Assembly (NCBI GenBank): GCA_023250585.1
Contig: JAHFAK010000110.1
Coordinates: 1 to 7,685, forward strand
Length of the DNA: 7,685 bases
Direction: 5' to 3'
Origin: Deltaproteobacteria bacterium
GTDB lineage: Bacteria; Bdellovibrionota_F; JAHFAK01
Shown here piece after piece: positions 610 to 6,900 of this stretch. The notes under the pieces were generated by a model. It saw nothing but the letters and a program-made list of their open reading frames with translations, searched no databases and had not been told where the DNA came from. The translations under genes were made by a program, and so were the position numbers. Numbering within the stretch: the stretch's first letter is position 1; each line of letters starts with the position of its first letter.

Positions 610-637
610 TTGACATATGTCATCATTTATATAGAAT
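610..637 (+). promoter_or_regulatory. Sigma70-type promoter of the carbamoyltransferase-methyltransferase gene
   Basis: A perfect -35 TTGACA (610-615) and a near-perfect -10 TAGAAT (632-637) are separated by 16 bases. The predicted start is near 644, giving a leader of about 39 bases before the ATG at 683. It is the best promoter match in the window. It begins eight bases after the tandem repeat and is overlapped by TGACAT half-sites. Confidence 0.75.
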
Positions 638-682: not shown

Positions 683-3600
683 ATGTATCACATAGGGATT
701 AATCTTGGACATGATCGATCTGCCGCTATTGTTCGCGATGGCAAAATACTTTCAGCAATTCACCAAGAACGATTAGATAGATGTAAACACAGTATTGGAT
801 ATCTCTATCAAAATGTAGGTGATGATGGACAGATCCAATTACCTCATGAAGCAATCCAGTATTGCATGCAGAGCCTTGGCATTAGTTTTAATGACATTGA
901 AACAATTACAGCAAATATGCCGGGCATTGATAAATCATATGATATTTTATTACGGCAACTTCCTGCAGAGTTAAAAGAAAAAATACGAAAAGCTCCAAGT
1001 CATCATCTTCTTCATGCCTACACTGCATTTTGGCCATCGGGATTTTCAGAATCACCCATTCTTGTTGTCGATGCTTCGGGATCAACATATCCTGATGGAA
1101 CCTGTGAGTCGTATTCACTCTTTAAAGGTGAAGGCACGCGGATTGCTCCTATTCATAGCGAACGAGTTCCCACGCATCTTGCCGGACTTTCAACACTTGG
1201 ATTTGTGTATGAGTATATTACGCGTAAAGCAGGATTCATAACTCGCGTTGGAGAATCGGTATCAATTCCTGAAGCTGGAAAGCTCATGGGCCTTGCGCCA
1301 TATGGAACTGATCAAAAGAATTGGCGAGAATGGTTTCATATTAATCCAAAGAGTTATCACATTGAAATCAATGCCTATGACATTTTTTTAGAAATAGCTG
1401 CTATTGAAAAAAAATATGATGATCACAACGGCAAACCGTATTTGCGAGCTTTCATGGCTGACTTAGCCTATAAGGTCCAAAAGGAACTTGAAAAAGCGCT
1501 CCTTCATCTTGCACGGTTAGTTACCGAAGAAACAAAAAGTAAGCAACTCTCTATTGCTGGCGGTGTAGGATTGAATTCAGTTGCAAATTACAAAATATTA
1601 CGCAAATTGCAGCTCGATGATATATTTATTTTTCCCGCAGCAGGTGATGCTGGAATTGCAGCAGGCGCTGCTCTCTGGGCATATGCAACGAGCACCAAAA
1701 AGCCAAAACGCGAAAAACTCTCGAATGCCTTCCTCGGTAAAACGTACAGTAAAGAAACAATTGAAAGTACACTGAAGAAATTTGATAAACAAATTACCGT
1801 TGGTGAGTTATCGTATAATGAGATTATCGCAACGACAGCGAAGATGCTCTCGAAAGGCCATATCATTGCTCGCTTTGAAAAGGGTTCTGAATTTGGACCA
1901 CGCGCACTGGGCAATCGCTCAATTATTGTTGACCCTTCATTTCCCCAAATGCGTGATGTCCTTAATGCTCGTGTGAAATTCCGTGAAGCGTTCCGACCAT
2001 TTGCTCCGGTTATTCCCGAGTCAAAAATTGACGAAGTATTTGAACAAAAAATTCCATCTCCGTTTATGCTTGTTGTATCGAATATCAGAAAAAAATATCA
2101 TTCACTTATTCCGTCAGTTACTCATGTCGATGGAACGGGCCGTGTGCAGTCGGTTACCAAAAAAGATAATCCCTTTTTCCATGATCTTTGTTTTCAGATT
2201 AAGAAAGAACGAAAAGGACCACCGGTTTTACTCAATACGAGTTTTAATATTGCTGGCCAACCTATTGTAGAAACTCCAGAAGATGCACTCGAAACATTTC
2301 TTGCAACGGATATTGATTATTTGGTTTTAGAAAATTTTTGGATTTCAAAAAAACATGCAAGCGTTAAAGAATATGATGAACATATATCACTCGTGAAACC
2401 AACATTCTTACCCAAAGGTCTTCTCCCCGATCAAAGTGATCTTACCGATATGATGACCGAACTCGATAAAGCGTTTTTTTATAAGAAAAACGATGATTGT
2501 CCATGGACGCATGATGAGCTTTTACGGTTATCTTCCGAAGGAGCACGTTTCCGTGAAAAAAGTAAACTTTTCCAAAATAACCCCTATCGCGTACCATTTA
2601 AGTCCGAGCTTTCTCCTGCGATTGGTATCATCTTTGATCCCCTTGGTAGATCTCAATTAGCTAATAGAGAAGAAAAGAAGATTTCTCATTTTCTTACCTG
2701 GGAAGAAACAAACATTATACTTGCGCTCGTCCATGGTTCATCTCTCAATCTTTCTCGTCTTCGTTTAGACCTCCAATATTCAACGGAGGAATGGGAATCG
2801 CTTCTTACCCATTGGCAAACTATATTACATGAACTTGGTGTGAAAACCAGAGGATGGAAACAAGCGATAACGAGCACCAAAAAAGTAATTAAACGAGATT
2901 CAAAAACTTTTAGTATTTTTGAAAATGAAAACGTTAATGACGAAGGATATTTGAGAAAATTTCGAAATATATTACACGAAGTAGGATACCGAGAAGCAAC
3001 CGTATGTAAAATTCTTAAAGTAGAAACCCTACAAGATATTAATCCGACACATTATTATTACTATGATAAATATGTGTTAGATGAAACACCCGTTTCTGAC
3101 TGTATTCGATTATTTCTCATACGAGCTGCAATTCCTCTAAAACGGCTCGAAAAACTCATTACAGACAAACGTACACTCGATTTTCTGAAAGATATTGGAT
3201 TATTTATACAAAGAGGGTTACATACTTTTGTTTCTCGTGTGGATATTTATCATGTTGATGATCTCTACATCGTGACTGATCATCGCTACCTACTCTTTGA
3301 AGAAGATAAACTCTCTGAAAATGCTGTGATGTATATTGGAGCTGATAGTCTTGGTCTTGTTCATACAGCGCCACGGTATCCGGTCGGAAATATACTCGAT
3401 CTCTGCACGGGTTCAGGTATTCAGGCTCTCGTTGCAAGTCGCTATGGAGCCACAGTTATTGGTGTTGATATCAACCCCCGAGCGATTAGGTTCGCTCGCT
3501 TTAATGCAGTCTTAAATGGAATTCACAATGTACAATTTATACAATCAAACCTTTTTGAAAAATTAAAAGGTAAACATTTTGATACCATACTTGCAAATCC

Positions 3601-4531
3601 ACCATTTGTTCCAAGCCCACGATCTAATGTAACGTTTCGTGATGGAGGAAAAAATGGAGAGGAAATTTTAGTAAACATTATTAAACAATCGAAAGACTAT
3701 CTTACTGATCGGGGAAAACTTCATATTGTAACCGATTTAGTTGAGACGAAGAGCTACGAGAAGAAGCTTAAGTCATGGTGGTCGGGAGGCCGGGCTCATA
3801 GAATACTTCTTCAAACCGCTGATCGTGATGAAATTCTTTTTTCAGTGCCACACAGCCATTTACCTTTTGGACAGAGTTATGAAAGCTACACAAAAGAGCT
3901 CGGACAATGGATTGAGAATTTTCGTAAAAAGGGTTTAAAGAAAGTTAACTTTGGGTATATTTTGATTCATAAAACAAAGGTTTCGAATGAACACTATTTA
4001 GTGCGAACAATTAATAATCCCCATAAACCAATCCATCATGAAGTAAAAAATTACTGTGATGATTTAGATTTCATAAGTACGCTTTCTCATAAAGACTCAC
4101 GTGATTGTTCTCTTAAAATACATGAATCGATCCGATTACGGCAAGAAACAGGATCCAACGAGGACCAATCGGTGTATGAAATTGTTGCTCACAATAATCC
4201 TTTTTTTACAACCTATAAAACTACCGAAGAAGTGTTTCATATAGTTACCAATATTATTGAAAGAAAAACAACGTTACACGATTTCATGGGTAATGAAACA
4301 TACGACATCGTTATTGAATTACTCAATAAGGGCATTTTAAAAATTGTAAAAAATAGTAAAATGTCTCAGGATAGAGCTCATACACCATTACCTCTAATTT
4401 CATCTCCAAAAAATAACCTCGTCACACCGTTACCATTATTGTCACCCAAGAAGATTGGAGAACCGCTTATTAGAGAAATGGAGACAAAAACAACTCCAAC
4501 CTGCCTTTCTTCCTATATAACAACTTCATAA
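683..4531 (+). CDS. O-carbamoyltransferase (NodU/CmcH type) fused to a SAM-dependent methyltransferase
   Basis: Residues 1-555 form a full carbamoyltransferase of the NodU/CmcH/TobZ family, which makes carbamoyl-adenylate from carbamoyl phosphate and ATP and transfers the carbamoyl group to a hydroxyl. The Kae1-like part has the metal-binding H107xxxH111, D130 (VVDASGS) and D322 (AAGDAGIAAG). The C-terminal part has SEFGPRALGNRS (402-413), HVDGTGRVQSV (481-491) and LNTSFNIAGQPIVETPEDAL (517-536). Residues 560-745 are a linker of unknown fold with a possible small helix-turn-helix-like unit (670-720). Residues about 750-1100 resemble class I methyltransferases of the N5-glutamine/small-domain type with a helical N-terminal region: motif I LDLCTGSGIQAL (905-916), acidic D929 (GVDINP), NPPFVPSP (972-979) and FRDGG (985-989). 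Residues 1165-1222 look like a winged-helix C-terminal domain. The tail repeats TPLPLxSPK. Start: ATG at 683 after GAGAGG (673-678). Stand-alone carbamoyltransferases are usually near 550-600 residues, so this is about twice normal length. Substrate unknown. Confidence 0.9.
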   Translation: MYHIGINLGHDRSAAIVRDGKILSAIHQERLDRCKHSIGYLYQNVGDDGQIQLPHEAIQYCMQSLGISFNDIETITANMPGIDKSYDILLRQLPAELKEKIRKAPSHHLLHAYTAFWPSGFSESPILVVDASGSTYPDGTCESYSLFKGEGTRIAPIHSERVPTHLAGLSTLGFVYEYITRKAGFITRVGESVSIPEAGKLMGLAPYGTDQKNWREWFHINPKSYHIEINAYDIFLEIAAIEKKYDDHNGKPYLRAFMADLAYKVQKELEKALLHLARLVTEETKSKQLSIAGGVGLNSVANYKILRKLQLDDIFIFPAAGDAGIAAGAALWAYATSTKKPKREKLSNAFLGKTYSKETIESTLKKFDKQITVGELSYNEIIATTAKMLSKGHIIARFEKGSEFGPRALGNRSIIVDPSFPQMRDVLNARVKFREAFRPFAPVIPESKIDEVFEQKIPSPFMLVVSNIRKKYHSLIPSVTHVDGTGRVQSVTKKDNPFFHDLCFQIKKERKGPPVLLNTSFNIAGQPIVETPEDALETFLATDIDYLVLENFWISKKHASVKEYDEHISLVKPTFLPKGLLPDQSDLTDMMTELDKAFFYKKNDDCPWTHDELLRLSSEGARFREKSKLFQNNPYRVPFKSELSPAIGIIFDPLGRSQLANREEKKISHFLTWEETNIILALVHGSSLNLSRLRLDLQYSTEEWESLLTHWQTILHELGVKTRGWKQAITSTKKVIKRDSKTFSIFENENVNDEGYLRKFRNILHEVGYREATVCKILKVETLQDINPTHYYYYDKYVLDETPVSDCIRLFLIRAAIPLKRLEKLITDKRTLDFLKDIGLFIQRGLHTFVSRVDIYHVDDLYIVTDHRYLLFEEDKLSENAVMYIGADSLGLVHTAPRYPVGNILDLCTGSGIQALVASRYGATVIGVDINPRAIRFARFNAVLNGIHNVQFIQSNLFEKLKGKHFDTILANPPFVPSPRSNVTFRDGGKNGEEILVNIIKQSKDYLTDRGKLHIVTDLVETKSYEKKLKSWWSGGRAHRILLQTADRDEILFSVPHSHLPFGQSYESYTKELGQWIENFRKKGLKKVNFGYILIHKTKVSNEHYLVRTINNPHKPIHHEVKNYCDDLDFISTLSHKDSRDCSLKIHESIRLRQETGSNEDQSVYEIVAHNNPFFTTYKTTEEVFHIVTNIIERKTTLHDFMGNETYDIVIELLNKGILKIVKNSKMSQDRAHTPLPLISSPKNNLVTPLPLLSPKKIGEPLIREMETKTTPTCLSSYITTS

Positions 4532-4664: not shown

Positions 4665-5264
4665 ATGAAAAAAAATAAAGTAGCAGTAGTACTTATAGGC
4701 TACCAAAATGATTACTTCGCCAAAGATGGAATTTTACATAGTGTCATTGAACTCAATGCTCAGTCAGTACTGAATAATACCATGCATTTGGTGAAGTCAT
4801 TAAGTCCCACAAAAGTCCCGATGATTTCAACGCCCATTACTTTTACTCCAAATTATTCGGAGTTAGTTGAACCGGTGGGAATTTTGAAAACAATTAAAGA
4901 TGTGGGTGCTTTTAAAGAAGGAGCTAAGGGAGCTGAAACTATCCCCGAAATCAAGAAATTCGAACCACGCATTCAATCGATTCCGGGAAAGAGGGGATTA
5001 AACGCATTTAGTAATACAGATCTTGATAAGATTCTGAAGGAAAACAACGTTAATTCACTTGTAATAGCCGGCGTGGTTACGTCGCTCTGTATTGATTCAA
5101 CAGCAAGGTCAGCACATGAACGAGGATATAAGGTTTTAATTGTCTCTGATTGTATATGCGGGCGAACTCAAACAGAACAAAATTTCTATTTGGAAAATGT
5201 TTTTCCTCTGTATGCAGAGGTAATAGAGTACAAGACTCTTCTCAAGAAACTTGAAATAATGTAA
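4665..5264 (+). CDS. Isochorismatase-fold cysteine hydrolase with altered catalytic triad
   Basis: The 199-residue length and motif order fit the isochorismatase/nicotinamidase-like cysteine hydrolases, which hydrolyse amides or vinyl ethers with an Asp-Lys-Cys triad. The likely catalytic Cys is C142 in GVVTSLCID (136-144), with the family's usual cis-peptide region just before it. The likely Lys is K109 in GKRGLNAFSNTDL (108-120). The first strand reads VVLIGYQNDYF (8-18), where family members normally have a D-x-Q-x-D-F pattern, so the expected catalytic Asp is G12. D16 corresponds to the second, non-catalytic Asp of that motif. The protein may use another acid, do different chemistry, or be inactive. 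No signal peptide or membrane segment is seen, so it is cytoplasmic. It has its own promoter and a strong AGGAGG, and is followed after 55 bases by the hybrid kinase, probably as one transcript. Family call is firm; substrate (amide, carbamoyl compound or other) is unknown. Confidence 0.87.
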   Translation: MKKNKVAVVLIGYQNDYFAKDGILHSVIELNAQSVLNNTMHLVKSLSPTKVPMISTPITFTPNYSELVEPVGILKTIKDVGAFKEGAKGAETIPEIKKFEPRIQSIPGKRGLNAFSNTDLDKILKENNVNSLVIAGVVTSLCIDSTARSAHERGYKVLIVSDCICGRTQTEQNFYLENVFPLYAEVIEYKTLLKKLEIM

Positions 5265-5319: not shown

Positions 5320-6900
5320 ATGAATTCAAAAAAAGACGAATTACAAGCCCAAATTCATTATCGACTTATCGAAAGTCTTTCTTCATCTGAAAAGCGATTT
5401 GAAACACTCGTTGAACATCTCCAAGAAGCTGTTTTTGAGGTTAATGCCGATCGGGTTTTTACTTTTCTCAATCCTATGTGGGAAACATTGACAGGATATA
5501 AATTAGGGGAAAGTTTAGGGGCGCGGATTTGCCATTATGTATATGCAAAAGATAGGAAACGCTGTAGAGCTCTTTTTACCTTTGATGGAAATTTACTCAA
5601 TCCCAACAAACAGGATAAGATTCGTTTCAAAGATAAAACGGGAGAGATTAAATGGTTTGTTGTTTCTATAAATTTTGATGAGAGTAATACGATCAGTGGA
5701 TCACTCCATGATATCACTCATTTACAGAAAACTCGTGAAGATCTTGAAGCATCAATGCTCGAATTAAAAAGTGCTCAAGCGCAGTTAATACAGAGTGAAA
5801 AAATTGCTGGCATTGGACAACTAGCCGCCGGCGTATCACATGAATTTGGTAATCTACTTACTATTATGGATGGATATGCTCAGCACGCACAAAGAAATCC
5901 TGCAAAAGAAAATTATGAAAAACTTGTTGAAATTGTGCTGTCTACCTCAGAACGCGCAAAAAATATTATTAAAGGCATGCTCAGTTTTTCTCGTAAGACT
6001 GAATTAAAGAAGGTCGTTACCGATGTTAAAAATCTCGTAGAGAATGTACTGGTTATTATCGAAAACAGTCTTAAAAAAGAAGGTATGGAGATTGAGAGAG
6101 ATTATAACAAGAGTGCGGAAGTTTTTGCTGATCCCGGGCAGATTCAACAAGTACTCTTAAATATGATACTCAATGCTCGTGATGCTATGGCAGGTACAGG
6201 CGGAAGAATTACGATTACAACTGATGTTATTCTCGACAAACTGCTTATTCAAATAAAAGATACCGGATGTGGAATTCCTGCAAAAAATCTGTCGCATATC
6301 TTTAATCCATTTTTTACGACTAAGCATGAAGTAACAAGCTCAGGCCGGCCAGGGACTGGGCTTGGACTTTCGGTATCATACGGTATTATTAAAGATCACT
6401 GCGGCGAAATCACCTGTACGAGTAAAGTAGGTGAGGGAACTACCTTCAATATTTATCTCCCTTTATTACAAAATGATAGCAAAGCTTTACCTCAAACGGA
6501 TACTAAGAAAGCTCTTCTTAATCAATTTAATCGGGTTAAGTCTCTTAAAATTTTAGTTGTTGATGATGAAGTGAATATAGCATCTCTCTTAAAAGATGTA
6601 TTAACTAATGAGGGCTACCAGGTTGAAACATCGCATAATGGTGATGATGGTATTCGCGTTTTTAAAGAGAAAATTTTTGATATTATCATCATGGATATTC
6701 TCATGCCCGGAGGAATCAATGGAATAGAAGCAACAAAAGAAATAAAGAAGGTAAATAAAAACTCAAAAATTATTTTTTTATCGGGCAAAAAGCTATCGAA
6801 AGAAAACGAAGACGAATTGAAAAAAATTGGAGATGATTATCTTGCTAAGCCTTTTCAAATAACTGAATTACTGAATGCAGTCACACGACTCGCTCATTAA
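5320..6900 (+). CDS. Cytoplasmic hybrid sensor histidine kinase (PAS-HisKA-HATPase-REC)
   Basis: This 526-residue protein has no membrane segment. A PAS sensor domain spans about 27-135, with a PAC-like end (RFKDKTGEIKWF, then SGSLHDITHLQKTRE). A coiled segment leads to the dimerisation/phosphoacceptor domain with H174 in AAGVSHEFGN (169-178). The ATPase domain has the N-box NMILNARDAM (281-290), G1 DTGCGIP (314-320), F-box IFNPFFTTK (327-335) and G2 GTGLGL (345-350). A C-terminal receiver domain (409-526) has the acidic pair D415/D416, phosphoacceptor D459, S488 and K510, so all key residues are present. It should autophosphorylate H174 and pass phosphate to D459 and possibly to another receiver; no Hpt domain is seen. 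The ATG at 5320 is supported by GAGG at 5307-5310, inside a hairpin. It lies 55 bases after the hydrolase gene with no clear promoter between, so cotranscription is likely. Its stop overlaps the stop of the convergent response regulator by four bases. The signal sensed is unknown. Confidence 0.95.
   Translation: MNSKKDELQAQIHYRLIESLSSSEKRFETLVEHLQEAVFEVNADRVFTFLNPMWETLTGYKLGESLGARICHYVYAKDRKRCRALFTFDGNLLNPNKQDKIRFKDKTGEIKWFVVSINFDESNTISGSLHDITHLQKTREDLEASMLELKSAQAQLIQSEKIAGIGQLAAGVSHEFGNLLTIMDGYAQHAQRNPAKENYEKLVEIVLSTSERAKNIIKGMLSFSRKTELKKVVTDVKNLVENVLVIIENSLKKEGMEIERDYNKSAEVFADPGQIQQVLLNMILNARDAMAGTGGRITITTDVILDKLLIQIKDTGCGIPAKNLSHIFNPFFTTKHEVTSSGRPGTGLGLSVSYGIIKDHCGEITCTSKVGEGTTFNIYLPLLQNDSKALPQTDTKKALLNQFNRVKSLKILVVDDEVNIASLLKDVLTNEGYQVETSHNGDDGIRVFKEKIFDIIIMDILMPGGINGIEATKEIKKVNKNSKIIFLSGKKLSKENEDELKKIGDDYLAKPFQITELLNAVTRLAH

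Follow-up and report, generated by a model that had tools for sequence, protein, structure and literature searches.

The subject of this analysis is a single long gene in the draft genome of a deltaproteobacterium (assembly GCA_023250585.1; 164 contigs that add up to 2.24 Mb, with a completeness of 97%), located on contig JAHFAK010000110.1 (C33), which at 7.7 kb makes up the entire window, that is, the whole 7,685-nucleotide stretch of DNA considered here. The gene is an open reading frame (ORF) of 1282 codons that encodes, in this order, a carbamoyltransferase, a linker and a methyltransferase, and is flanked by a DUF1499 protein gene, a hydrolase gene, a histidine kinase gene and a response-regulator-like ORF (Table 1).

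One reading frame, two enzymes

The initial annotation held that the two enzymes form one polypeptide, and this claim withstands scrutiny. The frame contains neither a stop, the interval between residues 560 and 750 included, nor an ambiguous base; the other two forward frames across the same interval contain 49 and 140 stops. The signature residues listed in that annotation are all in place, namely those of the carbamoyltransferase (H107, H111, D130, D322 and EFGPRALGNR) and those of the methyltransferase (LDLCTGSG, GVDINP starting at residue 927, NPPFVP at 972 and FRDGG), so that both catalytic sets are intact, and both halves score above the respective Pfam cut-offs.

Could the frame nevertheless be an artefact of assembly or sequencing that joined two genes? 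The fusion is known from one contig only, in an assembly of draft quality, and the linker of about 190 residues shows the least typical codon usage in the ORF (r about 0.44-0.55 against the other parts of the ORF, for a stretch that is short). Against such an artefact, which we consider very improbable, stand the lack of stops and ambiguous bases, a linker of about 190 codons that keeps the frame and that the structure model shows as partly folded, and the lack of a clear ribosome-binding site ahead of the few start codons within the linker. The GC content along the ORF shows no sharp break between the two halves. Chance in-frame joining of two genes is unlikely as well because some 190 stop-free linker codons would have had to arise without a function.

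Table 1. Coordinates of the features in the window
Feature	Positions	Strand	Evidence or remark
DUF1499 protein gene, upstream of the fusion	80-553	same as fusion	
Sigma-70-like promoter match, TTGACA-16-TAGAAT, 11/12, 5' of the ORF	610..637	+	motif scan; weak
Fusion ORF, carbamoyltransferase + linker + methyltransferase, 1282 aa	683..4531	+	ORF reading, Pfam, frame/codon analysis
Kae1-like (Carbam_trans_N) domain, residues 1-344; H10, H107, H111, D130, D322	683..1714	+	Pfam, alignments, fold comparison
YrdC-like (Carbam_trans_C) domain, residues 386-556; EFGPRALGNR 403-412, K432, S520	1838..2350	+	Pfam, alignments, fold comparison
Linker, residues 557-743; helices predicted, confidence low in places	2351..2911	+	structure model; Pfam/PDB searches
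AerE/GenN-like N-methyltransferase unit (N-terminal domain + class I S-adenosylmethionine (SAM) core), residues 744-1126	2912..4060	+	profile, fold comparison
YIGADS, residues 884-889; Y884, D888 = AerE Y137, D141	3332..3349	+	alignment
SAM-binding motif I LDLCTGSG, residues 905-912	3395..3418	+	Pfam, alignment
NPPF, residues 972-975; N972 = AerE N231	3596..3607	+	alignment
FRDGG, residues 985-989, common to the DUF7059-type family	3635..3649	+	alignment
C-terminal part, residues 1127-1240, low model confidence	4061..4402	+	aligns with DUF7782-type C-terminus of relatives
Predicted disordered tail, residues 1241-1282, pLDDT (predicted local distance difference test) about 31-36	4403..4528	+	structure model
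Isochorismatase-family hydrolase gene, 133 bases downstream of the fusion	4665-5264	same as fusion	
Hybrid histidine kinase gene	5320-6900	same as fusion	
Response-regulator-like ORF	7262-6897	opposite	

By sequence and predicted fold, residues 1-556 are a complete class III O-carbamoyltransferase with no sign of decay. The two Pfam domains are detected with E values of 3e-63 (Carbam_trans_C, 212.8 bits against the curated cut-off of 27) and 3e-35 (Carbam_trans_N, 122.6 against 24), and the sequence matches of this half in the PDB are NovN, VtdB, GdmN and TobZ. The predicted model of residues 1-757 retrieves the same four structures at Z 35-38 (about 38 for TobZ, NovN and GdmN) over approximately 510 residues, after which the score falls to about 21 for TsaD/Kae1. 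The metal-site residues H107 and H111 (HxxxH), D130 and D322 are invariant in both alignments (A4 and A5); H10, which is aligned with the general base H27 of GdmN (PMC9633730) in the comparison with PDB sequences, is almost invariant in A5; and K443 and S530 of the YrdC site of TobZ, both of which are sites of deposited variants, correspond to K432 and S520. TobZ, NovN, GdmN, VtdB and NodU resemble this half in both domains, in the metal, general-base and YrdC-site residues, and in the fold, although with the model for NodU proper (NF041651) it scores 124 bits, below the curated cut-off of 1000. Unlike the protein encoded in the window, the class III carbamoyltransferases of known structure carry no methyltransferase. 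GdmN possesses a C-terminal dimerisation domain (PMC9633730), a possible but uncertain counterpart of the linker. The linker itself has no sequence match in Pfam or the PDB and was modelled with low confidence in both structure models (residues 1-757 and 561-1282).

Affinities of the methyltransferase half

Downstream of the linker, the Pfam domain MTS is recognised at residues 893-1030 (65.8 bits against the curated cut-off of 23). A profile of five rows that combines the window sequence with distant relatives (A2) retrieves GenN (E 1.6e-28) and AerE (E 1e-22), and the model of residues 561-1282 matches the same two proteins at Z of about 30-32 over about 300-348 residues, with a root-mean-square deviation of 2.6-3.4 (AerE, Z 31.8-31.9 with 342-348 residues aligned; GenN, Z up to 32.0), whereas the next of the structures compared follow only at Z of about 16-17 (best, 16.7). 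These matches span the N-terminal domain and the catalytic core, and therefore, the N-terminal domain is part of the methyltransferase unit. AerE is a maturase of ribosomally synthesised and post-translationally modified peptides (RiPPs) that methylates asparagine side-chain amides (PMC11285071). Together with PoyE, it shares with the window protein the N-terminal domain, the SAM core, the YIGxDS and NPPF motifs, and the three residues altered in deposited AerE variants, Y137, D141 and N231, all of which are retained (Y884, D888 and N972). The differences are that AerE and PoyE are stand-alone proteins with a peptide substrate and are only 17-18% identical to the window protein, which additionally has the C-terminal region and the FRDGG motif. 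GenN, the gentamicin N-3'' methyltransferase, which modifies an aminosugar nitrogen (PMC12689558), is the best match in both profile and fold and is alike in the N-terminal domain and core, but is a stand-alone protein with an amine acceptor and has NSPT in place of NPPF. Given the fold and the AerE-like set of Tyr, Asp and Asn, the methyltransferase half most likely methylates a nitrogen.

The initial annotation saw in this half, including the helical domain that precedes the core, a likeness to PrmC, which would point to a protein target; methylation of a protein glutamine, for example in a release factor, would then make the carbamoyltransferase a passenger. The NPP(Y/F) motif of the PrmC/HemK N5-glutamine methyltransferases is indeed present, as NPPF, and no gene above the PrmC cut-off was found elsewhere in the source genome. 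However, prfA lies at a contig edge (C119:9-1064, minus strand), so that a neighbouring prmC may simply be absent from the assembly, and the PrmC model (TIGR03534) scores 75.2 bits against the curated cut-off of 199.1, with a fold Z of 16.4 compared to about 32 for AerE and GenN. By model score and fold comparison, the methyltransferase half is not PrmC, the helical domain belongs to the unit shared by AerE, GenN and the DUF7059-type proteins, and a PrmC-like role has to be regarded as far-fetched.

The nearest counterparts in overall organisation are stand-alone methyltransferases from Actinomycetota and other bacteria that share with the window protein the order of regions (DUF7059, MTS, DUF7782) and the NPPFV and (Y/F)RDGG motifs. 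Two such relatives carry Pfam DUF7059 around the core (L026 and L032), and one of them (L026) also carries DUF7782; these relatives align along the methyltransferase half, including the C-terminal part, even though neither DUF was detected in the window at an E value of 5. A winged helix similar to PqqD or the RiPP recognition element was suggested by the sequence, but was dropped when Pfam gave no match. A search of the literature on DUF7059 yielded nothing on function or substrate.

These relatives bring into play the possibility that the two activities are unrelated, the carbamoyltransferase having been neutrally joined to a house-keeping methyltransferase of the DUF7059 type that acts, for instance, on RNA or protein. 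Most of the relatives are stand-alone, none was found fused, and not a single carbamoyltransferase gene was detected in the flanks of the 80 relative loci from named genomes (mostly Actinomycetota, with Riflebacteria, Planctomycetota and one Desulfococcus); one relative (G245) lies between genes that we read, from the ORFs, as a proton-pyrophosphatase and topoisomerase I. Against this, the methyltransferase half of the fusion falls, in the phylogenetic tree, outside a well-supported clade of 34 rows (98/96) that contains the actinobacterial rows, and it has the AerE-like Tyr and Asp at positions 884 and 888 where 75 of the 97 aligned sequences have Gly and Ala. Tyr and Asp are found together in only four sequences, that of the window and those from G118, G209 and a planctomycete. 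With these observations in hand, uncoupled activities seem unlikely, if still worth bearing in mind. As a separate observation, the AerE-like methyltransferase gene of G209 (C181; L046:125-1135), with the motif YIGRDS, adjoins a ketosynthase-like (FabF-like) gene.

Rarity of the fusion and comparable arrangements

When the full-length protein was used as the query, only half-length matches were obtained in 59 genomes and in the phage collection, and no whole-length relatives were found among the genome contigs and viral contigs (genome_contigs and viral_contigs). In the plasmid collection, queried with the part behind the carbamoyltransferase, no locus covered 80% of the query. The methyltransferase profile, run against 386 genomes, produced no other frame longer than 653 amino acids among the matches listed, and the two genes detected in the phylum of G119 (Riflebacteria type) are both stand-alone. 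Carbamoyltransferases as such are common, being present in 143 of the 386 genomes at an E value of 1e-30; this survey took in the best matches only, so rarer fusions could sit lower in the list. Across everything searched, namely the 386 genomes plus the collections of phages, plasmids, viral contigs and genome contigs, the fusion with an AerE/GenN-type methyltransferase is so far unique to the source genome. The expectation that the architecture would be new is thus borne out with respect to this methyltransferase type and to the literature searched, in which we found no characterised enzyme with the same order of domains; as far as fusions of the two activities in general are concerned, it has to be relaxed.

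Indeed, a frame in G066 (contig C21; L228:3284-6133) encodes a carbamoyltransferase followed by a cysteine-rich, zinc-ribbon-like stretch and a Methyltransf_11-type domain. This is an independent carbamoyltransferase-methyltransferase fusion with the same order of the two enzymes, in which the methyltransferase, located behind the cysteine-rich stretch, belongs to a different family. In G118, a carbamoyltransferase gene (C260; L039:7896-9596) is followed, with a four-base overlap and in the order seen in the fusion, by a gene for an AerE-like methyltransferase that also keeps the Tyr, Asp and Asn residues; the surrounding genes, read as glycosyltransferases, flippase-like and asparagine-synthase-like proteins, are of a polysaccharide type.

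Other long carbamoyltransferase frames were inspected along with these. A frame in which the carbamoyltransferase runs into a B12-binding radical SAM domain (L227:2898-6077; G393:C157) was discarded, the join being probably caused by an indel near the end of the carbamoyltransferase; four more (L224, L225, L226 and L229) have only upstream extensions of non-coding appearance, and in another (L230) the C-terminal stretch has no Pfam match. In G036 (C110; L231:4574-7423), one frame links a carbamoyltransferase N-domain with a radical SAM/SPASM domain and lacks Carbam_trans_C, and the preceding gene encodes the C-terminus of another carbamoyltransferase. Two viral contigs contain tandem pairs of carbamoyltransferase genes (L138:4001-7260 and L147:5685-7274).

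Proposed carbamoylation and N-methylation of one molecule

What, then, might the fusion protein do? The family and the conserved sites suggest that the Kae1-like and YrdC-like domains would convert carbamoyl phosphate and ATP to carbamoyl-AMP and then use this to carbamoylate a hydroxyl, on either a small molecule or a glycan, whereas the C-terminal half, as its fold and the AerE-like residues suggest, would bind SAM and methylate a nitrogen of the same molecule, with the fusion holding the two reactions together. That both halves act on one molecule is suggested by the fusion itself, by the G066 fusion, by the gene pair in G118, and by the precedent of rhizobial NodS and NodU, the former of which N-methylates and the latter carbamoylates the same Nod-factor sugar, with carbamoylation favoured after methylation (PMC5080398). 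The latter system likewise combines N-methylation with O-carbamoylation, but does so with separate proteins, and NodS belongs to another methyltransferase family. The proposal of coupled modification made in the initial annotation accordingly gains ground, and we consider it fairly probable that the protein is a genuine bifunctional tailoring enzyme responsible for O-carbamoylation and N-methylation of a single molecule.

As the acceptor of the methyl group, we favour the newly installed carbamoyl NH2, since it is chemically akin to the primary amides on which AerE acts; the product would then be an N-methylcarbamate. About equally likely is methylation of an amine at another place in the scaffold, as in the case of GenN and NodS. 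If the carbamoyl nitrogen is the acceptor, the fusion would be a single-chain N-methylcarbamate synthase, the second half methylating the carbamoyl nitrogen supplied by the first, in a modification that otherwise involves two enzymes; we put this forward tentatively, as a possibility that may well turn out not to hold. The reaction proposed here is the one named in the title of PDB entry 9l4q, which describes Asc-Orf2 as a carbamoyl N-methyltransferase. Asc-Orf2, which has been crystallised, is a separate protein of 214 residues that has the class I core in common with the window protein.

Several observations weigh against these proposals. The match to Asc-Orf2 is confined to the common core (Z 14.9; profile E 1.4e-6): the matched part, model residues 291-539, begins with the core and leaves out most of the N-terminal domain. 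Asc-Orf2 is no closer to the window protein than many other methyltransferases, and the carbamoyl-nitrogen idea accordingly rests on chemistry and on the likeness to AerE. The carbamoyltransferase of G118 has Asn in place of the general-base His, such that this pair may be non-functional and is a weaker witness for coupling. Furthermore, the methyltransferase half shares only about 20-25% sequence identity with its relatives, its exact position in the tree is unsure given the long branches, the fusion was found in one genome only, without a second copy, and the 7.7-kb contig shows no biosynthetic cluster.

The nature of AerE as a RiPP maturase also raises the prospect of a peptide or protein substrate, held by the linker and the C-terminal domains, the side chains of which would be carbamoylated and methylated in the manner of RiPP maturation; the prediction of the linker as helices of unknown fold is compatible with such a role. 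This seems quite improbable to us, considering that the class III carbamoyltransferases of solved structure use small molecules and that the contig shows no evident RiPP gene, though precursor peptides were not specifically sought.

Under the bifunctional interpretation, the union of two known kinds of tailoring enzymes in a single polypeptide suggests that the product bears both groups. The fusion would also provide a direct handle on the DUF7059-type methyltransferases, a family for which we found no described substrate. The N-methylcarbamate group is used in drugs and pesticides, and if the methyl group does go to the carbamoyl nitrogen, the protein would offer a compact biocatalytic route to such compounds.

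None of the flanking genes is an obvious tailoring partner. Promoter-like sites are no more common upstream of the ORF than in shuffled sequence, so the sigma-70-like match is weak. The isochorismatase-family hydrolase gene could be co-transcribed with the fusion; its product bears a weak likeness to biuret amidohydrolase, scoring 64 bits where the cut-off is 370.

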